A stretch of 22,450 nucleotides of DNA from a virus, in IMG/VR virus record IMGVR_UViG_3300032050_000875, positions 1-22,450 of that record; one strand, 5' to 3'. Every line of letters starts with the position of its first letter. Positions within the stretch are counted from its first letter, which is position 1. The translations under genes and the position numbers were made by a program. Positions 844-16,431 of this stretch are shown piece after piece. Below the pieces are notes generated by a model. It was given only the letters and a program-made list of their open reading frames with translations. It had not been told where the DNA came from and made no database searches.

Positions 844-917
844 TTGCGTTTCCTGATCAAGCGCACAAGCGGCATCAACGCCAAACCGTCTAGGAATCCG
901 CGTAGGAAGTGGGTCAT
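840..917 (-). CDS. Tiny 25-aa basic hydrophobic peptide gene
   Basis: A 25-codon frame starts at the ATG at 917, overlapping the homing-endonuclease stop as ATGA, and ends in a TGA at 840-842 that overlaps the start of the 164-aa gene, again as ATGA. It fills exactly the gap between the two larger genes. The peptide begins MTHFLRGFLDGLALMPL and ends in a basic run RLIRKRK. A hydrophobic stretch before a positive tail suggests a membrane-associated or amphipathic helix. There is no clear Shine-Dalgarno, so expression would depend on coupling. No function is recognised. Exact overlaps at both ends argue against chance. Confidence 0.55.
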   Translation of the reverse strand: MTHFLRGFLDGLALMPLVRLIRKRK

Positions 918-1513
918 GTTGTGATGGCCTGAGCCGCGACAATCTGGTTCATGCGCTTGTTGTTGATGCCAAGCATTTTCCGAGCGTCTTCACGCACCAT
1001 GCGCTGGCCTTGCACATCAACCCAGACGTTGTTGCGCTTGTTTCGCATCTGCACTTTGTAGTCCACCCACCGGCAGTTTTCCGGCGCATATGGGCCATTG
1101 ACGTCAATGCGATCAATCGTTAGACCTTCTTGTGCTTCTCCCATGTCTTGAGCAAAAGCAGCAAAGTCATTCCAACGGCCACAGATAGTGATGCCTCTGC
1201 CGCCATAGTCCGCATAGCGTGGATTTTTGGCATTCATACAGCGCTGACGCATGTTTTTCCAAATACGGTACAGCAGAGTTTCTGCACCTTTAACGCCGCT
1301 CCCGTGCTTAGTCATGCGCTGACGCTGCAAGTCAGTTTTGAGGCATCCACACGAACGGCTCATACCCTTGCGCAGGTTTGTGCCGACTGCGGTTGTTTCT
1401 TTGCCGCACTCACAAGCACAGCGCCACAGCGTCTTACCGTTGAAGCCTGCACGCGCTAACACGGTAAGCCTGCCAAAACGCTGGCCCGTAAGGTCAATTA
1501 AAGGTTTTCCCAT
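914..1513 (-). CDS. HNH-like (YGGRGI-type) putative homing endonuclease
   Basis: This 199-aa protein resembles free-standing phage endonucleases. Residues 7-60 form a zinc-ribbon-like N-terminus, 'LTGQRFGRLTVL' followed by cysteines at 32, 34, 36, 55 and 57. The core has YGGRGI (103-108), DRID (134-137), NCRW (146-149) and an NKRNN patch near 158-162, a degenerate HNH arrangement in which DRID stands where DHID is usual. Residues 163-195 look like a helix-turn-helix or NUMOD-type DNA-binding tail. It starts 2 nt after the fibre stop and its own stop overlaps the next start, so it sits neatly between two genes. It probably cleaves an empty site in related phages. The Shine-Dalgarno is weak. 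Activity and target are unknown. Confidence 0.75.
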   Translation of the reverse strand: MGKPLIDLTGQRFGRLTVLARAGFNGKTLWRCACECGKETTAVGTNLRKGMSRSCGCLKTDLQRQRMTKHGSGVKGAETLLYRIWKNMRQRCMNAKNPRYADYGGRGITICGRWNDFAAFAQDMGEAQEGLTIDRIDVNGPYAPENCRWVDYKVQMRNKRNNVWVDVQGQRMVREDARKMLGINNKRMNQIVAAQAITT

Positions 1514-4037: not shown

Positions 4038-4384
4038 TGCGTGACCTCTGCGCTGATGCTGATGGTGCCTCGGATCAGGCGATAGACCAAGCCGCCTGCA
4101 GTGACGATCTCCAGATCGTACTTGCCGAAGCTCCAGGTGAAGGCGGCCGACTCTGCGGCGGTGATGGTCAGCGTGATCTGCCCAAGATCGCCTGCGATGG
4201 CCAGCTTGCCGTTTGCCGTGGTGGCCTCAAACAGTACGGTGGTCACGTTCGTGGCCGCGCGAACCTGCATGCGCGCGGTGGCGCCGGTCAGATTGATGGC
4301 CGCTCCGTCGTCATCCGTCCAGCGAATGATCTGCTCGTAGCTGGCGCCTTTTTCGACGCTGAGATTGTGGACTTCGGCGCTCAT
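4034..4384 (-). CDS. 116-aa phage protein encoded next to portal (possible baseplate or connector component)
   Basis: The start chosen is the ATG at 4384, which overlaps the portal stop as ATGA; a longer frame upstream only reads through the portal gene out of frame. The protein begins MSAEVHNLSVEKGASYEQII and has 'INLTGATARMQVRA', then 'FTWSFGKYDLEIVTAGGLVY'. This 'G.t....w.d..G..inLtGataRmqvR' pattern is seen in many small phage proteins and faintly recalls the N-terminal domain of BppU-type upper baseplate proteins. Position between portal and fibres suggests a virion component. The function is not established. Confidence 0.75.
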   Translation of the reverse strand: MSAEVHNLSVEKGASYEQIIRWTDDDGAAINLTGATARMQVRAATNVTTVLFEATTANGKLAIAGDLGQITLTITAAESAAFTWSFGKYDLEIVTAGGLVYRLIRGTISISAEVTQ

Positions 4385-5727
4385 GCTTGCTCCAGAAGCC
4401 GCTGATCTATCGCGGCATGAATCAGGCCCTGCTGCTCTTGCCCAAGGCCGGCAAACTGCACCGACACGATGCGCCTCTGCTGCTCGGCGATGACTTCGGT
4501 CGGCATGGCCGCACCGATCATGCTGGCCAGAATGTCCAGCTCGGCCACGACGTCGGCTAGGTTGAAGTCGCGCGACCAGGAAATCTGCGGCGCGGTGGTC
4601 AGGCCAAGCCACTGGCGCGAAAGCTCCCAGGCTCTGCGCTCAAGGCTCTCCATCCTGCCGGCAAACTTGGCCAGCTCGGAGTTCAGCGCCTGAAACCGCA
4701 TCTGCAGGGCCAGGCCGGACTCGCGCTGCGACGATGAGGCGATCACCAGGCCTATCTCGTTGATCTGATCCTTCAGCGCCGCGATGCGGTCCAGGTAGAT
4801 CCGCGCGGGGCCATCCGGTGGCGCGATGAAAGCCGGCGTGCTGCCGCTGTGCACCATCAGGTTAGATGAGCCGATGGTTTCGCCAACGACCTGCGCAGCC
4901 TGGACCTTCTGCGCATCCGTGGAGTTCTCGCTAACCTGCATGGTCAGCAAACTGAACGTCTGCGAGCGCAGGATCTCGTCCAGCTCGCTGTCCAGATTGA
5001 ACATCCGCCGCGACAGGTCCGCGATGGGCGCAAACGGGCCGAAGTACGGGAAGTCCCCGCCCTCGGTGAAGATCAGCAGCGGGCACTCGGTCAGCGGATG
5101 CTCACCTTGCGCCAGGATGCGCTGCTGGCCATCCATGGCACGCCAGGATGTCAGGTCGAAGTGCCATGTGCAATCGACGCGCTCGCCGGTCTCCAGCGTG
5201 AAATTGCCCGAGAACTCCGCGTAGGTAAATTTCCCGTCGTCGCCGATCTGGTAGTCGGTTAGCAACTCGGGCTTGATGCTGGTCCAGTACGGCGCAACCC
5301 TGGCGCGCACCTGCTGCTCCAGCGTCGGGGCCATGGCCGGCGGCATGTCAACCAGCAGCAGCATGCTGCCGCGTGCCTTGGCCTCCACCACGAACTGAGA
5401 CCAAAAGCTGTCGATGCTGTTGCCTTTGCCGTCAATGTCGGCGGCCATCGCCTCGTACAGCGGATTGGCCATGGCGCGCACGGCAGGCCGGCTGGCGAGG
5501 TACCCGGCGAAGCGAGAGACGACCTGGGCCAGCGGCGAGGCGTACCAGGCGATTTCATTGCGGCGCGCGTACTTGGTCTCACTCTCGCGCGGGTACTGGA
5601 TCAGGTACGACGACGCCACCGCAATGGGGCGCGCCTTGCTGTCGAAGCTGATGAGAGGCCGAAATGGGCCGTCGCCATTTAGGGCGAAGCCTATGAATTT
5701 GAAGCGCGTTATATCTTGATTGGCCAT
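4381..5727 (-). CDS. Phage portal protein (DUF4055-like)
   Basis: This 448-aa protein has the layout of dodecameric portal proteins that form the DNA channel at one capsid vertex. The N-terminal third has 'YARRNEIAWYASPLAQVVSR' and a 'GSMLLLVDMPP' strand. The middle has 'FPYFGPFAPIADLSRRMFNL' followed by SELDEILRSQTF, the long helices expected of the stem and wing. The C-terminal region has 'SGLALQMRFQALNSELAKFA' and an ESLERRAWELSRQW helix. It resembles the DUF4055 group. It is the first gene of the leftward operon and its start lies only 50 bp from the divergent H-NS-like gene. No good Shine-Dalgarno precedes the ATG. Transcription away from scaffold and capsid is unusual. Confidence 0.85.
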   Translation of the reverse strand: MANQDITRFKFIGFALNGDGPFRPLISFDSKARPIAVASSYLIQYPRESETKYARRNEIAWYASPLAQVVSRFAGYLASRPAVRAMANPLYEAMAADIDGKGNSIDSFWSQFVVEAKARGSMLLLVDMPPAMAPTLEQQVRARVAPYWTSIKPELLTDYQIGDDGKFTYAEFSGNFTLETGERVDCTWHFDLTSWRAMDGQQRILAQGEHPLTECPLLIFTEGGDFPYFGPFAPIADLSRRMFNLDSELDEILRSQTFSLLTMQVSENSTDAQKVQAAQVVGETIGSSNLMVHSGSTPAFIAPPDGPARIYLDRIAALKDQINEIGLVIASSSQRESGLALQMRFQALNSELAKFAGRMESLERRAWELSRQWLGLTTAPQISWSRDFNLADVVAELDILASMIGAAMPTEVIAEQQRRIVSVQFAGLGQEQQGLIHAAIDQRLLEQA

Positions 5728-5777
5728 ATCACTGGTATATTGCAGGTTCGTTTCACTTTAACTCACCGGCTTTACCA
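5728..5777. promoter_or_regulatory. Divergent intergenic region between portal and H-NS-like genes, candidate promoters
   Basis: These 50 bp separate two divergent operons and are AT-rich against the surroundings. Rightward, TATATT (5736-5741) could be a -10 box but lacks a well-spaced -35. Leftward, TTAAAG and TATACC hexamers about 16 bp apart are a moderate match. Promoters in both directions are needed here unless long transcripts cross the region. Neither flanking gene has an obvious ribosome site. Individual boxes are uncertain. Confidence 0.3.
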
Positions 5778-6095
5778 ATGAGCATTAATGAACTCCTCGC
5801 ACAGAAAGCAGAACTTGAGCGCCAGATCGCCGAACAAACCCGCGCGGAGCGGGCGTCTGCGGTCTCGCAGATCAAGACCCTGATGTCTACCTATGGCCTC
5901 ACGCCTGGCGACATTGTGACCGACTCCGCGAAAGTTGCAAAGAGTCCGGCCCGCGAGAAGTCTACGCCCCGCGCCACCGTTGCGCCGAAGTACCGCAACG
6001 ACGCCGGCAACACCTGGACCGGGCGAGGCCTCAAACCCCGGTGGCTGACCACGGCCCTGGCTGGCGGCGCAACGCTTGAGCAGTTTGCAATCTGA
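5778..6095 (+). CDS. H-NS family nucleoid-associated protein encoded by the phage
   Basis: This 105-aa protein matches the beta-proteobacterial H-NS layout. Residues 1-40 form the coiled-coil oligomerisation segment (MSINELLAQKAELERQIAEQ), then comes a Lys/Pro linker, then a C-terminal DNA-binding domain with 'VAPKYRNDAGNTWTGRGLKP' and RWL (residues 68-90), ending LEQFAI. The W-T-G-R-G-x-x-P-x-W core inserts into the AT-rich minor groove in this family. Such proteins bind and silence AT-rich DNA. Here the gene is first in the capsid operon, 11 nt before the scaffold gene, which is an unusual place. It could adjust host silencing or control phage promoters; both are inference. No clear Shine-Dalgarno is visible. 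Confidence 0.9.
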   Translation: MSINELLAQKAELERQIAEQTRAERASAVSQIKTLMSTYGLTPGDIVTDSAKVAKSPAREKSTPRATVAPKYRNDAGNTWTGRGLKPRWLTTALAGGATLEQFAI

Positions 6096-6106
6096 CGGAG
6101 ACGACG

Positions 6107-6778
6107 ATGGACATTGAAAGCCTGAAGGAAGCCCTCGGAGACGAAAAGTTCACCGCGCTAAAAAGCTACGTCGATGATCTGCAAGGGCAACGCGACAGAG
6201 CGCGCCAGGAGTCGATCACCGGCCGTCGCGGCATGAAGGACAAGCTGGCCAAGCTTGAAGCGGACCAGAACGCGCTGATGGAGCGCCTGGGCATTGACAG
6301 CCTGGAGGATCTGGATCTTCTGCCCGATGCCAAGGGCGCCGCCGAGGCCGCGAAGCAATATGACGCCAAGCTCAAGCGCATGGAGCGCCAGCTGCAGGAG
6401 GCGACAACTCAGCGCGACGAGATCAGCGGCAAGTTTCGCGGCAGCTTGCAAAAGGCAGCCATCGCCGAGGCTTTGTCGGGCCATGAGTTTGTCGCGCGCG
6501 ATCTGGTCGAAACCTTCGTTTCGCAACGCCTGACCTGGGAAGGAGACGACCTATTGTTCAAGTCCGACGATGGGCGTATGATTCCGGTCAAGGACGGGAT
6601 CGCAGGGATTGCGAAGGCCCGTCCGGAATTGCTCAAATCGACCGGCACGGGAGGTGCTGGAGTCCGGGCATCCAACGCTGGAGGCGGTGGAGCCAAGACC
6701 ATGACCCGCGCCGAATTTGAAGCACTCGCACCCGCTCAACGGGTAGAGGCTGCAAAGTCAGGCGTCCAACTCGTCTAA
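6107..6778 (+). CDS. Capsid scaffolding protein
   Basis: This 223-aa protein is strongly charged. Residues 20-120 are predicted coiled coil (KLAKLEADQNALMERLG, then LKRMERQLQEATTQRDEIS). A small alpha/beta region follows ('WEGDDLLFKSDDGRMIPVKD'), then a Gly-rich linker and a C-terminal helix 'MTRAEFEALAPAQRVEAAKS'. The same order is found in scaffolding proteins of many siphoviruses and P22-like phages. They guide coat assembly and leave before DNA packaging. The gene lies directly upstream of the major capsid gene, which supports the call. A GGAG site precedes the ATG. Confidence 0.85.
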   Translation: MDIESLKEALGDEKFTALKSYVDDLQGQRDRARQESITGRRGMKDKLAKLEADQNALMERLGIDSLEDLDLLPDAKGAAEAAKQYDAKLKRMERQLQEATTQRDEISGKFRGSLQKAAIAEALSGHEFVARDLVETFVSQRLTWEGDDLLFKSDDGRMIPVKDGIAGIAKARPELLKSTGTGGAGVRASNAGGGGAKTMTRAEFEALAPAQRVEAAKSGVQLV

Positions 6779-6796: not shown

Positions 6797-7942
6797 ATGG
6801 GTGCCACCCTTACCAATCTCATCCCGACCCTGTACAGCAATCTGGACGTCGTGTCCCGTGAGCTGGTTGGTTTCATTCCCGCTGTGACGCTGGACGCGCA
6901 AGCCTCGCGCGCCGCAGTCAACCAGTCCGTGCGTTCGTTCGTCGCGCCTGCCGCATCGGCTGGCGACATCACCGCAGGCGTCACGCCTCCCAACGATGGC
7001 GACCAGACCATCGGCGACCAGGAGATCAAGATCACCAAGGCGCGCCGGGTTCCGATCCGCTGGACCGGCGAGGAAGAGCGCGGCTCCGGCCCCGCTGCTG
7101 CTGCCATCCAAGGCGCCCAGATCCAGCAGGCCATCCGCACGCTGTGCAACGAGATTGAGGCCGACATTGCCGATCTGTACAAAGTGGCGTCTCGCGCTGC
7201 TGGTGCTGCTGCCACGACGCCTTTCGGCACTGCTGGCGACTACACCGCTGCCAGCCTAACCCGCAAGATCCTGGTCGACAACGGCGCGCCTGTCTCCGAC
7301 ATGCAGCTGGTCCTCGACACGGCGGCGGGCGCCAATCTGCGCGGCAAGCAGGCCTCAAGCTCGCAGGAGTTCGGCGACACCATGCTGCGCCAGGGCGTGC
7401 TACTGGACGTGAACGGCATGATGGTCCGCGAGTCTGGTCAGACCAAGACGCACACGAAGGGCACTGCAGCATCGGCCACGACCAACACGGCCGGGTACGC
7501 GGTCGGCGCGACCACCATCACGCTGGCCTCGGCTGGCACCGGCACCATCCTGGCCGGCGATGTGATCACCTTCGCGGGCGACACGAACCAGTACGTGGTG
7601 ACCACCGGCGATGCTGACGTTTCCGGCGGCGGCACTGTGGTTCTGGCCGCTCCCGGCCTGCGCCAGGCGATTGCCGCCTCTGCAACGGCGATCACGGTGG
7701 TGGCCAGCAGCCCGCGCAACCTGGGCTTCGCTCGTTCGGCTATCGTGCTGGCGCAGCGCCTGCCGGCCCTGCCGGCTAACGGCGACCTGGCCTCGGATCG
7801 CACCAGCATCGTGGACCCGCGCTCGGGTCTGTCGTTTGAGGTGGCGCTGTATCCGCAGTACCGGCAGATGCAGTGGGAGGTGTCCTGCGCCTGGGGCGTC
7901 AAGGTCATCAAGCCCGAGCACGTCGCCATCTTGCTGGGCTGA
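6797..7942 (+). CDS. Major capsid protein, P22 coat (gp5)-like HK97 fold
   Basis: This 381-aa protein begins MGATLTNLIPTLYSNLDVVS and has 'RRVPIRWTGEEERG' in the first third. 'QGAQIQQAIRTLCNEIEADI' reads as the long spine helix of an HK97-type coat. Residues about 220-300, including 'YAVGATTITLASAGTGTILA' and 'DVITFAGDTNQYVV', look like the inserted beta I-domain of P22-like coats. It ends 'WGVKVIKPEHVAILLG', like the 'G....RPE' end of P22 gp5 relatives. TGGAG lies 8 nt before the ATG. Its TGA overlaps the next start (TGATG). Hundreds of copies would form the head. The fold assignment is by motif, not structure. Confidence 0.88.
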   Translation: MGATLTNLIPTLYSNLDVVSRELVGFIPAVTLDAQASRAAVNQSVRSFVAPAASAGDITAGVTPPNDGDQTIGDQEIKITKARRVPIRWTGEEERGSGPAAAAIQGAQIQQAIRTLCNEIEADIADLYKVASRAAGAAATTPFGTAGDYTAASLTRKILVDNGAPVSDMQLVLDTAAGANLRGKQASSSQEFGDTMLRQGVLLDVNGMMVRESGQTKTHTKGTAASATTNTAGYAVGATTITLASAGTGTILAGDVITFAGDTNQYVVTTGDADVSGGGTVVLAAPGLRQAIAASATAITVVASSPRNLGFARSAIVLAQRLPALPANGDLASDRTSIVDPRSGLSFEVALYPQYRQMQWEVSCAWGVKVIKPEHVAILLG

Positions 7943-11831: not shown

Positions 11832-12227
11832 ATGGCTGTCCCATCAGTTGCTACCTATTCCGTCAAGGCCAAGGAGGAGGCGCATAAGGCTTTTCGTACC
11901 TTGATCGACGCCGGCTCCGCTGCAGGCCGGCTCAAGATCCGCGACTCTGCCGACGTGCTGCTGGCCAACATCCCGCTGGCCGACCCATGCGGCACGGTTA
12001 GCTCAGGCACAGGCGTGCTCACCTTTGACGTCACGGCAGCCGAAGACACCAGCGCAGACGCGACCGGTACGGCGGCCTACGGCGAGTTCACTGATTCCGA
12101 TGGCGTCGTTCATTTGAGCCTGCCGACCCAGGCCGGCACGGCGGCCGTGAGCGGCAAGCTGGTCCTGAACACGCTTTCGATTGTCAGTGGCGGGCCTGTG
12201 AAGCTGGTAAGCGCAACACTTGGTTGA
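11832..12227 (+). CDS. Small tail-region protein, 131 aa
   Basis: This 131-aa protein begins MAVPSVATYSVKAKEEAHKA and has an AGGAG site 6 nt before the ATG, inside the end of the preceding gene. After a short helix it is beta-rich and low in aromatics ('AGRLKIRDSADVLLANIPLA', then 'GTGVLTFDVTAAEDTSADAT'). It looks like a small virion protein of the tail tip or a decoration subunit. I do not recognise a named family. It ends 4 nt before the ATG of the LamG-containing tail gene. Confidence 0.75.
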   Translation: MAVPSVATYSVKAKEEAHKAFRTLIDAGSAAGRLKIRDSADVLLANIPLADPCGTVSSGTGVLTFDVTAAEDTSADATGTAAYGEFTDSDGVVHLSLPTQAGTAAVSGKLVLNTLSIVSGGPVKLVSATLG

Positions 12228-12231
12228 TGTA

Positions 12232-13599
12232 ATGTCGACAGACATTTATTTTTCAGATGTTTCTTTGTTGCTCCATATGAATGGGGCAAATAATTCTACT
12301 TCTTTTTTAGATTCTTCATCTTCTACCAAAACCGTCACAGCAAACGGCGGTGCGAAAATTAGCAATGTTACGCCAAAATTTGGCAGCGGCAATGGTTTTT
12401 TTAACAGTCTAGATTCAGTTGAAGACTATTTATCTATTACAACATCTTTAGATTCGTTTAGATTTTCAACGAATGATTTTACAATAGAATGTTGGATAAG
12501 ATGCACGATTGGTAATGCCGCAATTATTGATGCATATAGTGGAAATCCATCAAGCTCAATAGATAATGGTTACCAACTATTTATTAACAATTCTGGAAAT
12601 ATAGAGTTCTGGATTGGCGCAAACGTCAGTGCAACTGTTACATCATCTGGTGATTTAAGAGATGGCAACTGGCATCATGTAGCTATTTCAAAGAATAGCG
12701 GAAATTTTAGATTGTTTATTGATGGTACTCAATCTGGAGGAACTCAATCTGACAGCACAAATCTAAATTTTCAAGCAACAATGTTCGCAATCGGCGCCCA
12801 ATATTGGGATGGCGACGTTTATTTTCCTTATAATGGTTACATTGACGAATTAAGAGTTACAAAGGGCATTGGCAGATACACAAGCAATTTCACGCCGGCA
12901 ACAGAAGAATTTCCAGAGTTTGACAAGATAAATGCAATTTCATCTGATTCTGGAGTATTGTCAAATGTTTCTGTTGTAGGTAACATAATAACATTTGCAC
13001 GAGCCGATGTGCCATCCATGCTCGGCGCAGCCAATCCGCTGGCCACGCACGATTTCACTTCGGTTATCGGCGACGCGACGACCTACTACGTGATGGATCT
13101 CACCACGCCAAGCGGTCTAGTGCGGGTGCCGATCTCAAGCTGGCAGGCCACGCTGCAGAGTGGCCTGAGCAATTACGTGCAGTGCGTGGTGCCTGCGGTC
13201 TCGGATTACGTCTCGGCCATCAATGCTGCAACGCAGTTCAAGATTTCGCGCTTGGTGGACGTGCCAGGACTGGCCACGCCGCTGACCTACGAGATGGCCA
13301 CGGCGCCAGTGCAGACAACGACCTTCGACCAGGGCCCGTTTCGGTACACCTGCACCATCAGCGGCTACAGCTCGGGCTTTGCCCCCAACGAGACGCCCAG
13401 CGCGGCCTACAACCGCATCATGCAGGGCATTAGGTCCATCAGCATCAACCAGGGCGGAACGCGCGTGCGGTGTTCGATTGACTGGCTACTGCGGCCATCG
13501 CAGCGGGTGTTCGCCAGCTCCGAGGAGTTCGTGGTGTCCTACATCAACTACTACGTCGGCGAGGGGGATGCCTACATGGAAGTCGGGGAGCGGGCCTGA
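12232..13599 (+). CDS. Tail-tip protein with N-terminal LamG-like receptor-binding domain
   Basis: This 455-aa protein starts at the ATG at 12232 (an in-frame TTG lies 12 nt upstream). Residues about 5-225 form a LamG/concanavalin-like jelly roll: 'DVSLLLHMNGANNSTSFLDS', then 'FTIECWIRC', 'GNWHHVAISKNSGNFRLFID' and 'YNGYIDELRVTKGIGRYTSN'. This domain binds glycans or surface ligands in many phage tails. Residues about 255-455 are a different tail domain, ending 'EEFVVSYINYYVGEGDAYME'. The first part is encoded by clearly AT-rich DNA and the second by GC-rich DNA, changing near 13010. It is probably a mosaic made by recombination. Its TGA overlaps the next start. Confidence 0.8.
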   Translation: MSTDIYFSDVSLLLHMNGANNSTSFLDSSSSTKTVTANGGAKISNVTPKFGSGNGFFNSLDSVEDYLSITTSLDSFRFSTNDFTIECWIRCTIGNAAIIDAYSGNPSSSIDNGYQLFINNSGNIEFWIGANVSATVTSSGDLRDGNWHHVAISKNSGNFRLFIDGTQSGGTQSDSTNLNFQATMFAIGAQYWDGDVYFPYNGYIDELRVTKGIGRYTSNFTPATEEFPEFDKINAISSDSGVLSNVSVVGNIITFARADVPSMLGAANPLATHDFTSVIGDATTYYVMDLTTPSGLVRVPISSWQATLQSGLSNYVQCVVPAVSDYVSAINAATQFKISRLVDVPGLATPLTYEMATAPVQTTTFDQGPFRYTCTISGYSSGFAPNETPSAAYNRIMQGIRSISINQGGTRVRCSIDWLLRPSQRVFASSEEFVVSYINYYVGEGDAYMEVGERA

Positions 13600-15950
13600 T
13601 GGGTCGCGGCACGATCCTGGCTAACCTGGGCGCTGGTCAATACACGATTAAGCTCGACTTCGGCGAGTCCCGGCTTGCGGCGCAGTTGCTGCTACTGACG
13701 GGCGCCAACACCGACCTAGACACACAGATTGCAGCGCAGCAGGCCAAAGTAAACACGGCCCAGGCCGCCCTCAACGCCAGCAATGCCGCGCTGGCAGCTG
13801 CGATCAATGCCTACGTCGCGGGCAACAGCGCGCCCAATCTGCTGCCTCCGGTGGAAACCGCCAAGCTGGACCAAGTGGCCAAGGAGGAGGCCCTGCGCAG
13901 GGAGACTGTGGCGCTTGGCAAGCTGCAGGGCTCAAAGGCCAACAACCTGCGCAAGATTGACGATCTCAACAGCTACCGAGTGAGCCTGACGCTGAACGCC
14001 TGGTGCGCGGATTACACCGAGGGCGCATCGGGCACGGTGGCCACGCTGGAGATTCCAAACGAGCCCAAGACGGTGCTGATTGCGCCAGCAGGCAGGGCAC
14101 CAGTCGATGCCGATGGCGATCTGCGCATGCGGGCCTTGATGACGGCACCGCAGGCCTACTACAACGTGGCAATCCTGCCAGGTTGGCAGAAGTTCAAGCC
14201 GACGTACCGCAGCGGCGTCATCACTGCTATCAACGGCGACACGGCCGATGTGGCGCTGGATGAAGCGAAGTCCAGCTCCGGCGGCATTGCCGACATCGGG
14301 CTGGCCAACATCGAATTTGACGTCAACCAGACCAGCACGCTCACCAACGTGCCGATTGTTTATCAGGACTGCAACGGCACGGCTTTCGAGGTCGGCGATG
14401 CGGTGGTGGTGCAGTTCATGGCGCAGAGTTGGAGCACGCCGCGCATTATTGGGTTTATGAGCAATCCAAATCCATGTCAAAACGCTTTTTTTAATTATGG
14501 AAAAGTTTTACCATTTGATAGTTTTGACGTTAGTCAAATAACTCCCGGACCAGTAATTAACTATTTTGGCGGTCCAGGAATAAGATATCAAGCAAGCCCT
14601 GAAATTACCTTAAATACTTTATGGTGGGGCGGCGATGTTGTGTGGATTGGCCAGACTGGTTCAGTGTCATGGAGGATGGAAGGCGATCCATATAACTTCC
14701 CATATGTAGTGTTTCGAGACACAACAATTGATTGCACAAGCCCTGAATTCTATGCTTGGCTGGCATCAAAAGATTCGTATGCAAACTATTTTCAACAATG
14801 GCACGTTTGCGGTGGCGCGGTTTATAATGAGCAAATAGGATCGGAAAGAAGGCAAATACTATACTTTGCCGCAATTAACAAAGAAGAAGCCGTTAGCGGA
14901 AACTCACAGTCTCTGAATGAAACGCTATATATCTACCGAAAAGACTTGGCAACGAATGCACTGACAAAAGTGTATGAGTTATCTGTTGCAATAGGTACGC
15001 AGAACAGGTTTGACGAAACCTCTCCTTGGGTAGACAATGAAGCGACTGGAAATTCTTTTGTTCATTTGACGGATGCCTCCAGTGGGCCGCTGCTTTCATC
15101 AAGTGGCAAAAAGATTTACAAGGTAATTCGAGACACAAACGACAATCCGCATTTTGGTTATTGCATTAAGGTATCGTTTCATCCAACGCAGCCTAAAGCC
15201 ATTTTTGCCTTTATGAGCAACTGGCAATACGGCTATATGCAATGGATTTATCAATCTGGGGCAACGTTTACGTCTGCAACTGGTGTAGTTGCGGCGGAAT
15301 ATCATCCAGATGACGGCAGAATTTGCAGCCTTGCAATAAGCAATTATGCTTTTGATCCTCAAGTGGATACAGAATTGCCTAATGGATCTATTGATTCGTT
15401 TATAGGTTTTGGAGCTTCTTTTACAGCAACCTTTAGCGAAGGTGGACTTACCGTAATTTCAGATGATCCAAGGCGCGCATTTGTCGGGCAACTTAATGTT
15501 TGCTTTCCACAAAACAACGTCATTGTTAGCAGGCAAAAGATTAGGCGGGTTAGCTTGGCAACCGCTCCTGCTTGGTCTAGAAACTTTTTTAGCGGCGCAT
15601 TTACTGAATCATATGTTCAAGGGACGATTGCCGGCAGCATATATTTATCAAATCCTCAATTGCCGCTTGTGCAATTCAGATCATCTGTAGCGCATTCGTA
15701 TTTGCTTGCATCGTTGACGCAAATATATTATTGGGTCAGGGTTGTCTATGCAAAGAACCGTTACTATGCAATGTTTTACACAATACAAGACGAGCAGCCA
15801 GGCGGCGGAATTCCTGCAAGGCTGTTGTCATCAGAGTTTACGCAAGCACAAATTGTAGAGGATACTGGCGTGACATTTAATGATTCTGCTGGGTCGTCTA
15901 GTGGATTGTCAATCTATACGCCGGCAAGAATTGGCTTCACTTCAAAGTAA
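13599..15950 (+). CDS. Large tail-tip/receptor protein with conserved N-terminal part and AT-rich C-terminal part
   Basis: This is a 783-aa protein. Residues 1-20 (MGRGTILANLGAGQYTIKLD) and a coiled coil at about 25-125 precede a beta-rich region ('PTYRSGVITAINGDTADVAL', 'AFEVGDAVVVQFMAQSWSTP') typical of tail-tip hubs with an OB-like barrel. From about residue 287 the DNA turns AT-rich and the protein becomes rich in Tyr, Asn and Phe, with repeated strand pairs that could form a propeller or beta sandwich. The long C-terminal part is probably the host-binding module. No enzyme motif is seen. It ends 4 nt before the endolysin start. Confidence 0.75.
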   Translation: MGRGTILANLGAGQYTIKLDFGESRLAAQLLLLTGANTDLDTQIAAQQAKVNTAQAALNASNAALAAAINAYVAGNSAPNLLPPVETAKLDQVAKEEALRRETVALGKLQGSKANNLRKIDDLNSYRVSLTLNAWCADYTEGASGTVATLEIPNEPKTVLIAPAGRAPVDADGDLRMRALMTAPQAYYNVAILPGWQKFKPTYRSGVITAINGDTADVALDEAKSSSGGIADIGLANIEFDVNQTSTLTNVPIVYQDCNGTAFEVGDAVVVQFMAQSWSTPRIIGFMSNPNPCQNAFFNYGKVLPFDSFDVSQITPGPVINYFGGPGIRYQASPEITLNTLWWGGDVVWIGQTGSVSWRMEGDPYNFPYVVFRDTTIDCTSPEFYAWLASKDSYANYFQQWHVCGGAVYNEQIGSERRQILYFAAINKEEAVSGNSQSLNETLYIYRKDLATNALTKVYELSVAIGTQNRFDETSPWVDNEATGNSFVHLTDASSGPLLSSSGKKIYKVIRDTNDNPHFGYCIKVSFHPTQPKAIFAFMSNWQYGYMQWIYQSGATFTSATGVVAAEYHPDDGRICSLAISNYAFDPQVDTELPNGSIDSFIGFGASFTATFSEGGLTVISDDPRRAFVGQLNVCFPQNNVIVSRQKIRRVSLATAPAWSRNFFSGAFTESYVQGTIAGSIYLSNPQLPLVQFRSSVAHSYLLASLTQIYYWVRVVYAKNRYYAMFYTIQDEQPGGGIPARLLSSEFTQAQIVEDTGVTFNDSAGSSSGLSIYTPARIGFTSK

Positions 15951-15954
15951 AACC

Positions 15955-16431
15955 ATGAAATTCGAAACCGCATTTGCCCTGCTGCTCGGCCACGAAGGCG
16001 AGTTCAGCGACCACCCCGACGACCCCGGCGGCAAAACCCGCTACGGCGTCACCGAGGCCGTGGCCAGGGAGACGGGCTATAAGGGCGACATGCGCGAGTT
16101 GCCGCTGGAGCTGGCGCAGCGGATCTACCTCGAAAAATACTGGAAGCCGATCCGGGCCGATGACCTGCCGCCTGGTGTGCGCTACGCGACTTTCGACGCC
16201 GCAGTCAACAGCGGGCCGGCGCAGGCCACTCGATGGCTGCAGCGTGCGCTCGGGGTAGAAACCGATGGCGTCATCGGGCCGCAGACACTGGCCGCCGCCT
16301 ACGCTCAGGACGCCAACGCGCTGCGCATGCGCATGCTGGCCCAGAGGTTGCGGTTCATGACCGGCCTGACCAACTGGCCGGCGTTCTCGCGTGGCTGGGC
16401 GCGGCGGATTGCTGACCTCATGGAGTCGTGA
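15955..16431 (+). CDS. Endolysin, GH108-type muramidase
   Basis: This 158-aa protein starts MKFETAFALLLGHEGEFSDH at 15955; an upstream frame start lies inside the previous gene. The catalytic-type glutamate is E14 in HEG, followed by 'PDDPGGKTRYGVT' as in GH108 N-acetylmuramidases, which cut the peptidoglycan glycan chain. Residues about 90-158 form a PG_binding_3-like domain ('VETDGVIGPQTLAAAYAQDA'). There is no signal peptide or membrane anchor, so it needs the holin encoded next. No Rz/Rz1 spanin genes are seen nearby. Its stop overlaps the holin ATG (TGATG). Confidence 0.92.
   Translation: MKFETAFALLLGHEGEFSDHPDDPGGKTRYGVTEAVARETGYKGDMRELPLELAQRIYLEKYWKPIRADDLPPGVRYATFDAAVNSGPAQATRWLQRALGVETDGVIGPQTLAAAYAQDANALRMRMLAQRLRFMTGLTNWPAFSRGWARRIADLMES

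Follow-up and report, generated by a model that had tools for sequence, protein, structure and literature searches.

A Phage H-NS Homologue with an Altered DNA-Binding Hook at the Head of a Capsid Operon in a Group of Freshwater Bacterial Viruses

Introduction

Why a virus should carry an H-NS-family gene directly before its scaffold and capsid genes is the question raised by a locus in a virus record of 22,450 bases, which was analyzed over its whole length (hereafter, the window). H-NS and related silencers are already known in phages, including those of EPV1 and Schitoviridae and the Lsr2-like CgpS. To our knowledge, phage-encoded H-NS has been reported since 2011, though without a tested function. 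In H-NS proteins, a Q/R-G-R motif reaches into the minor groove of AT-rich DNA (PMC4466236), and simulations revealed that R114 of E. coli H-NS, the last arginine of this motif, is the first to enter the groove (PMC6424460).

The H-NS-Family Gene and Its Genomic Setting

The features of the locus, with neighboring genes named by PHROGs, are as follows.

4381–5727, minus strand: portal gene, divergent neighbor of the H-NS gene (phrog_145, E 9.5e-45)
5728–5777, no strand: divergent portal/H-NS junction, 50 bp, AT-rich, no palindrome (junction comparison)
5778–6095, plus strand: H-NS-family gene, 105 aa, at the head of the rightward, probably late operon (PF00816, 57.6 bits; kept in 12 other contigs; omega 0.04–0.26)
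5784–5891, plus strand: N-terminal helix, residues 3–38, presumed oligomerization part (AlphaFold2 model, weak PF22470 match)
5985–6092, plus strand: C-terminal DNA-binding domain, residues 70–105 (full PF00816 profile; Foldseek to Ler, Bv3F)
6024–6032, plus strand: AT-hook-like motif R83-G84-L85, third residue L, not R/K (alignment of 12 phage copies and 80 others)
6107–6778, plus strand: head scaffolding protein gene (phrog_206, E 2.1e-11)
6797–7942, plus strand: major head protein gene (phrog_283, E 8.4e-90)

The ORF runs uninterrupted from its ATG to a stop codon at 6093–6095, and its product matches the full Histone_HNS profile (PF00816) over residues 70–105 with an E-value of 1e-15 and a score of 57.6 bits against a curated cut-off of 25.6 bits, so that the phage H-NS homologue proposed in the preliminary description is borne out. 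The match to the N-terminal model PF22470 was weak (19.9 bits, below the cut-off of 24.5). In the AlphaFold2 model, one long helix (residues 3–38, pLDDT above 80) and a disordered linker (49–64) precede a confident C-terminal domain; the coiled-coil N-terminus described earlier thus stands as a predicted N-terminal helix, by which the protein would oligomerize. The nearest solved folds found by Foldseek were the C-terminal DNA-binding domains of Ler, Bv3F and Salmonella H-NS, with no E-value below 0.001. Judged from its sequence, the 105-aa protein is an H-NS homologue of full length that is adapted to the phage.

The gene starts 50 bp from the portal gene, ends 11 bp before the scaffold gene and is the first of a rightward operon of scaffold, capsid, tail and lysis genes that diverges from the portal gene. 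Its position at the head of the scaffold/capsid operon, as previously claimed, was therefore confirmed by the PHROGs neighbors and by the order kept in relatives, and this gene order suggests that it is probably made with the late genes. A scan for sigma-70 promoters around the portal/H-NS junction found none.

Distribution among Related Viral Contigs

Relatives were sought among viral contigs, first in scans that took the H-NS, capsid, scaffold and portal proteins as queries and then by tblastn and profile searching. The gene succession portal, H-NS, scaffold, capsid recurs with unchanged order and strands in 12 further viral contigs, one of which (L009) ends inside the H-NS gene, and H-NS comes first in the scaffold-capsid operon of the window and of all 11 relatives whose contig also holds the scaffold gene. 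Because the gene, its start codon and its order recur in 12 other contigs, the ORF is not a chance one, and because this order is conserved, the gene is far from being absent from all relatives. With portal, scaffold and capsid genes around it both in the window and in its relatives, it is a phage-encoded H-NS gene of the kind known from EPV1, and its carriers are a group of freshwater bacterial viruses. The copies are 95–96% identical to that of the window in the nearest contigs, 72–75% in L008 and about 51% in a second lineage (L013, L018, L027 and L049), and they are under purifying selection, with omega values of 0.04–0.26 (pairwise Nei-Gojobori). Between the window and L013, identity is 51% for H-NS, 74% for the scaffold and 93% for the capsid protein, so H-NS diverges faster.

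The divergent portal/scaffold arrangement also occurs, with homologous head genes but no H-NS, in about 50 related contigs, and the long records among them, G017 (40 kb) and G022 (36 kb), contain no Histone_HNS domain anywhere. The H-NS gene is therefore a stable, clade-specific addition and not a family-wide component.

Neither the window nor six H-NS-carrying contigs of up to 36 kb (contigs that may be fragments) yielded a tyrosine integrase, and a portal-profile search for a prophage or host, run without a positive control, detected no portal relative in 399 Burkholderiales genomes. On these grounds, a lytic, late role of H-NS is more likely than silencing in lysogeny. An HNH endonuclease gene of the window (914–1513, minus strand) adjoins variable leftward tail genes, and short genes resembling it lie near an exonuclease gene in G005 and G009.

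Variation of the DNA-Binding Hook

The hook was compared by aligning the 12 complete phage copies with 80 other H-NS proteins, comprising Burkholderiales best matches (a biased sample), four Janthinobacterium proteins, five named phage records and E. coli H-NS. At the third hook position, equivalent to R114, the 80 others carry a basic residue in 73 cases (R 39, K 34), the rest being L (2), Q (2) and P, S and A (one each), while all 12 phage copies carry L (8) or I (4, the second lineage) and none has R or K. They thus lack the basic third residue of the silencers with a Q/RGR hook. The canonical W80, G82, R83, G84, P87 and W89 are retained. The WTGRGLKPRW core had been described as intact; that holds for these six residues but is an overstatement for the whole, because the third hook residue is Leu85 and not Arg or Lys.

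In this alignment the substitution is real, rare and common to the clade. The R-G-L hook would probably result in changed, weaker minor-groove binding, short of a proven loss, and the remaining R83 and K86 could support DNA binding. The two best bacterial matches, L109 and L110, likewise have R-G-L, so the change may have been inherited and may be functional rather than weakening. The H-NS gene of L110 lies on a chromosome-sized contig, near sugar-epimerase and other surface-polysaccharide-like genes, as judged from their sequences.

Phylogeny and Comparison with Known H-NS Proteins

In the phylogenetic tree, the phage copies group with Schitoviridae-type H-NS proteins, the latter on a long branch (support 94/97). 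The comparison with host H-NS proteins suggested earlier gave a partial answer: the copies are nested in no sampled host group, in a weak and poorly resolved tree of 109 columns and 89 rows. The best bacterial matches are about 37–50% identical, and no close host donor was found among 300 Burkholderiales genomes. Matches labeled 'Acinetobacter phage MD-2021a' were rejected as phage copies, being pieces of bacterial chromosome; in one such GenBank record (L198, CAKLQH020000023.1), hns is surrounded by hemC, hemD and type II secretion genes.

The short H-NS proteins of Burkholderiales (Bv3F type) share with the phage protein a length of about 100 aa, the N-terminal helix and the TW(S/T)GRG..P.W core, but nearly all of them have a basic third hook residue. 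The Schitoviridae-type proteins of OLIVR1 and ZX86 are likewise phage H-NS-domain proteins of the same tree group, but their genes lie beside helicase and DNA polymerase genes, and they have N-terminal extensions and an RGK/RGR hook. The H-NS antagonists T7 gp5.5, LUZ24 gp4 (Mip), H-NST and Ler resemble the phage protein in the relief of host H-NS silencing proposed for it. T7 gp5.5 and LUZ24 Mip are not known to be full-length H-NS homologues; H-NST, unlike the 105-aa protein, has no DNA-binding domain, and Ler keeps the third arginine (VGR) where the phage copies have L or I. The protein gp43 of EPV1 (JF412294, Skennerton et al. 2011, PMC3097231) is also a full-length phage H-NS (34% identity), but its gene lies upstream of TerS among hypothetical genes, outside a capsid operon, and its hook is a canonical RGK. 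The H-NS proteins Sfh, Acr2 and Sfx are mobile-element copies too, with QGR or RGR hooks, and belong to plasmids rather than to a virion operon (PMC11796372).

The other virus H-NS genes encountered lay close to genes for replication or recombination, or elsewhere than in the capsid operon, with a basic third residue in those that were read. In L208 and L212 (about 4238–5285), an H-NS gene with an RGK hook directly follows a phage-like gene of 232 aa; L208 has an exonuclease-like gene close by as well, a location of the early-region kind. Two further viral contigs (L211:2988–5111 and L213:2994–5153) encode ParB-like proteins of about 710 aa with a C-terminal H-NS DNA-binding domain (..YRDSAGNTWTGRGKRPGWL..), an apparent ParB/H-NS fusion. 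No publication describing a capsid-operon phage H-NS with an R-G-L/I hook was found in an open-access library; the capsid-operon position, this hook and the link to AT-rich tail cassettes appear to be new.

The Portal Junction

The junctions differ between the two groups of phages. Portal/scaffold junctions without H-NS are about 100 bp long (mostly 80–130 bp), and the five H-NS-carrying junctions compared measure 49–53 bp, with 36–44% GC. A palindrome that beats shuffled sequences at p ≤ 0.05 was detected in 11 of the 25 junctions without H-NS (1.25 expected; binomial 1e-8) and in none of the five with it, a contrast that is not significant (Fisher p 0.13). The palindromes are perfect or near-perfect, such as TGTTTCATGGCGTGAAACA and CTTTTCACGCCGTGAAAAG, and no second copy was found on the available stretch of the ten H-NS-free contigs tested. 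In L025, L031, L289 and L294, for example, palindromes of about 17–21 bp keep their place and vary in sequence by phage. Such a palindrome is a probable operator-like site of a co-evolving regulator, and the comparison suggests that a palindrome-type control might have been replaced upon the arrival of H-NS. A 747-bp junction in L223, considered as the site of another cargo gene, was discarded as a break in the portal frame.

AT-Rich Tail Cassettes

The GC content of the window averages 59%, with a minimum of 34% at 12.2–13.1 kb and about 41–45% at 14.3–16.0 kb, which defines two further features.

12200–13100, no strand: AT-rich stretch, down to 34% GC, in the LamG-domain tail gene 12220–13599; proposed target (GC profile, PF13385)
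14300–16000, no strand: AT-rich stretch, about 41–45% GC, in the 3′ part of the next tail gene (13599–15950); proposed target (GC profile)

The first of these tail genes encodes a LamG/concanavalin-like domain (PF13385), and the second stretch directly precedes the endolysin gene. The first stretch is present in all seven H-NS-carrying contigs longer than 15 kb, equally far from the capsid gene in each and with a GC content of 0.36–0.49, and the second in all six that reach that far (0.34–0.45), while the corresponding places in relatives without H-NS had 0.58–0.71 in eight of eight measured. Contigs with H-NS show the larger GC drop (Mann-Whitney p ~1e-5 over 35 contigs, uncorrected for kinship). 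Since the H-NS-carrying viruses have AT-rich tail genes with no counterpart in their close H-NS-free relatives, H-NS may manage the virus's own AT-rich DNA; since these viruses form one clade, the association may also go back to one evolutionary event. AT-rich islands at first seemed confined to H-NS carriers, an impression weakened by at least two more distant relatives without H-NS, L246 and L306, that show strong GC drops too.

The cassettes differ between phages. Those of G002 and G009 are 98% identical over 921 bp although the portals of these contigs are 98% and 74% identical to that of the window, which argues that cassettes are exchanged between phages. The high-affinity H-NS site of E. 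coli, TCGATAAATT, is not enriched (11 matches against 8.1 expected).

Discussion

The reading we favor, tentatively and at somewhat less than even probability, is that this hook-altered H-NS homologue acts together with host H-NS on the AT-rich late DNA of the phage and limits its silencing. The protein would be made with the late genes, it would self-assemble and associate with host H-NS through its N-terminal helix, and its C-terminal domain, with a probably weakened R-G-L hook, would join or displace host H-NS on the AT-rich late DNA. The targets would be the AT-rich portal/H-NS junction and the AT-rich tail cassettes 5–9 kb downstream of the capsid gene, probable host-recognition genes, and host H-NS would thus be kept from silencing them in the late phase. 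In this mechanism we infer the late expression, the oligomerization, the DNA binding, the contact with host H-NS and the way in which the effect runs. Ler (VGR) and H-NST, with altered or missing DNA-binding parts, relieve H-NS silencing (PMC4466236; PMC7074111). A more elaborate form, in which the H-NS gene with its AT-rich promoter replaced the palindromic operator and the hook-altered protein is a co-transcribed counter-silencer that allows AT-rich host-recognition cassettes to be kept or swapped in a GC-rich host, is in our estimate unlikely.

The main rival to counter-silencing is autoregulation, which we regard as somewhat unlikely: H-NS would bind the AT-rich 50-bp junction, repress its own divergent late promoters and stand in for the palindromic operator. 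The gene adjoins this junction in every relative, and single-copy palindromes occur in 11 of 25 junctions without H-NS and 0 of 5 with it; however, the palindrome contrast alone lacks significance, 50 bp is short for the nucleation of an H-NS filament, and the AT-rich tail cassettes would be left as a coincidence. It is improbable, too, that the phage protein supplements or replaces host H-NS and represses host CRISPR-Cas or restriction-modification genes, as hypothesized for the full-length H-NS of EPV1 (PMC3097231). The 105-aa protein does have both H-NS parts, but the product of a gene that heads a capsid operon would come too late to protect DNA on entry, the hook substitution speaks against stronger silencing, and the EPV1 copy lies at another site and carries a canonical hook. 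The suggestion in the preliminary description that host silencing is modified is thus possible, though the evidence favors AT-rich late DNA of the phage itself as the target.

The accessory distribution of the gene and its faster divergence than scaffold and capsid would fit a selfish or host-useful passenger in a permissive junction, with no role in the phage cycle. Such cargo is quite unlikely, given purifying selection and the conservation of place, start and core in two lineages; with no integrase seen, a lysogenic benefit is doubtful as well. The immediate proximity to scaffold and capsid genes in every relative might instead suggest that, during packaging, H-NS covers or bends the phage DNA or is taken into the head, as an aid to compaction or packaging. 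We consider this very improbable and reject it as the main reading, since about 50 relatives whose portal and scaffold genes are homologous lack H-NS; the 40-kb and 36-kb records lack any H-NS domain, H-NS binds AT-rich DNA, and the genome here has about 60% GC. The compaction before packaging envisaged earlier thus has nothing in its favor, and a shut-off of early genes is not supported either.

The clade offers a natural comparison, with homologous head modules with and without H-NS, contrasting GC content of the tail cassettes and a single-residue hook change, and this comparison together with so clean a change makes the phage use of H-NS directly testable. If counter-silencing holds, these phages would supply for themselves a factor through which freshly exchanged AT-rich tail genes are expressed in GC-rich hosts, and if the operator was indeed replaced by a co-transcribed counter-silencer, H-NS would be a phage-encoded tolerance factor for the phage's own foreign DNA.
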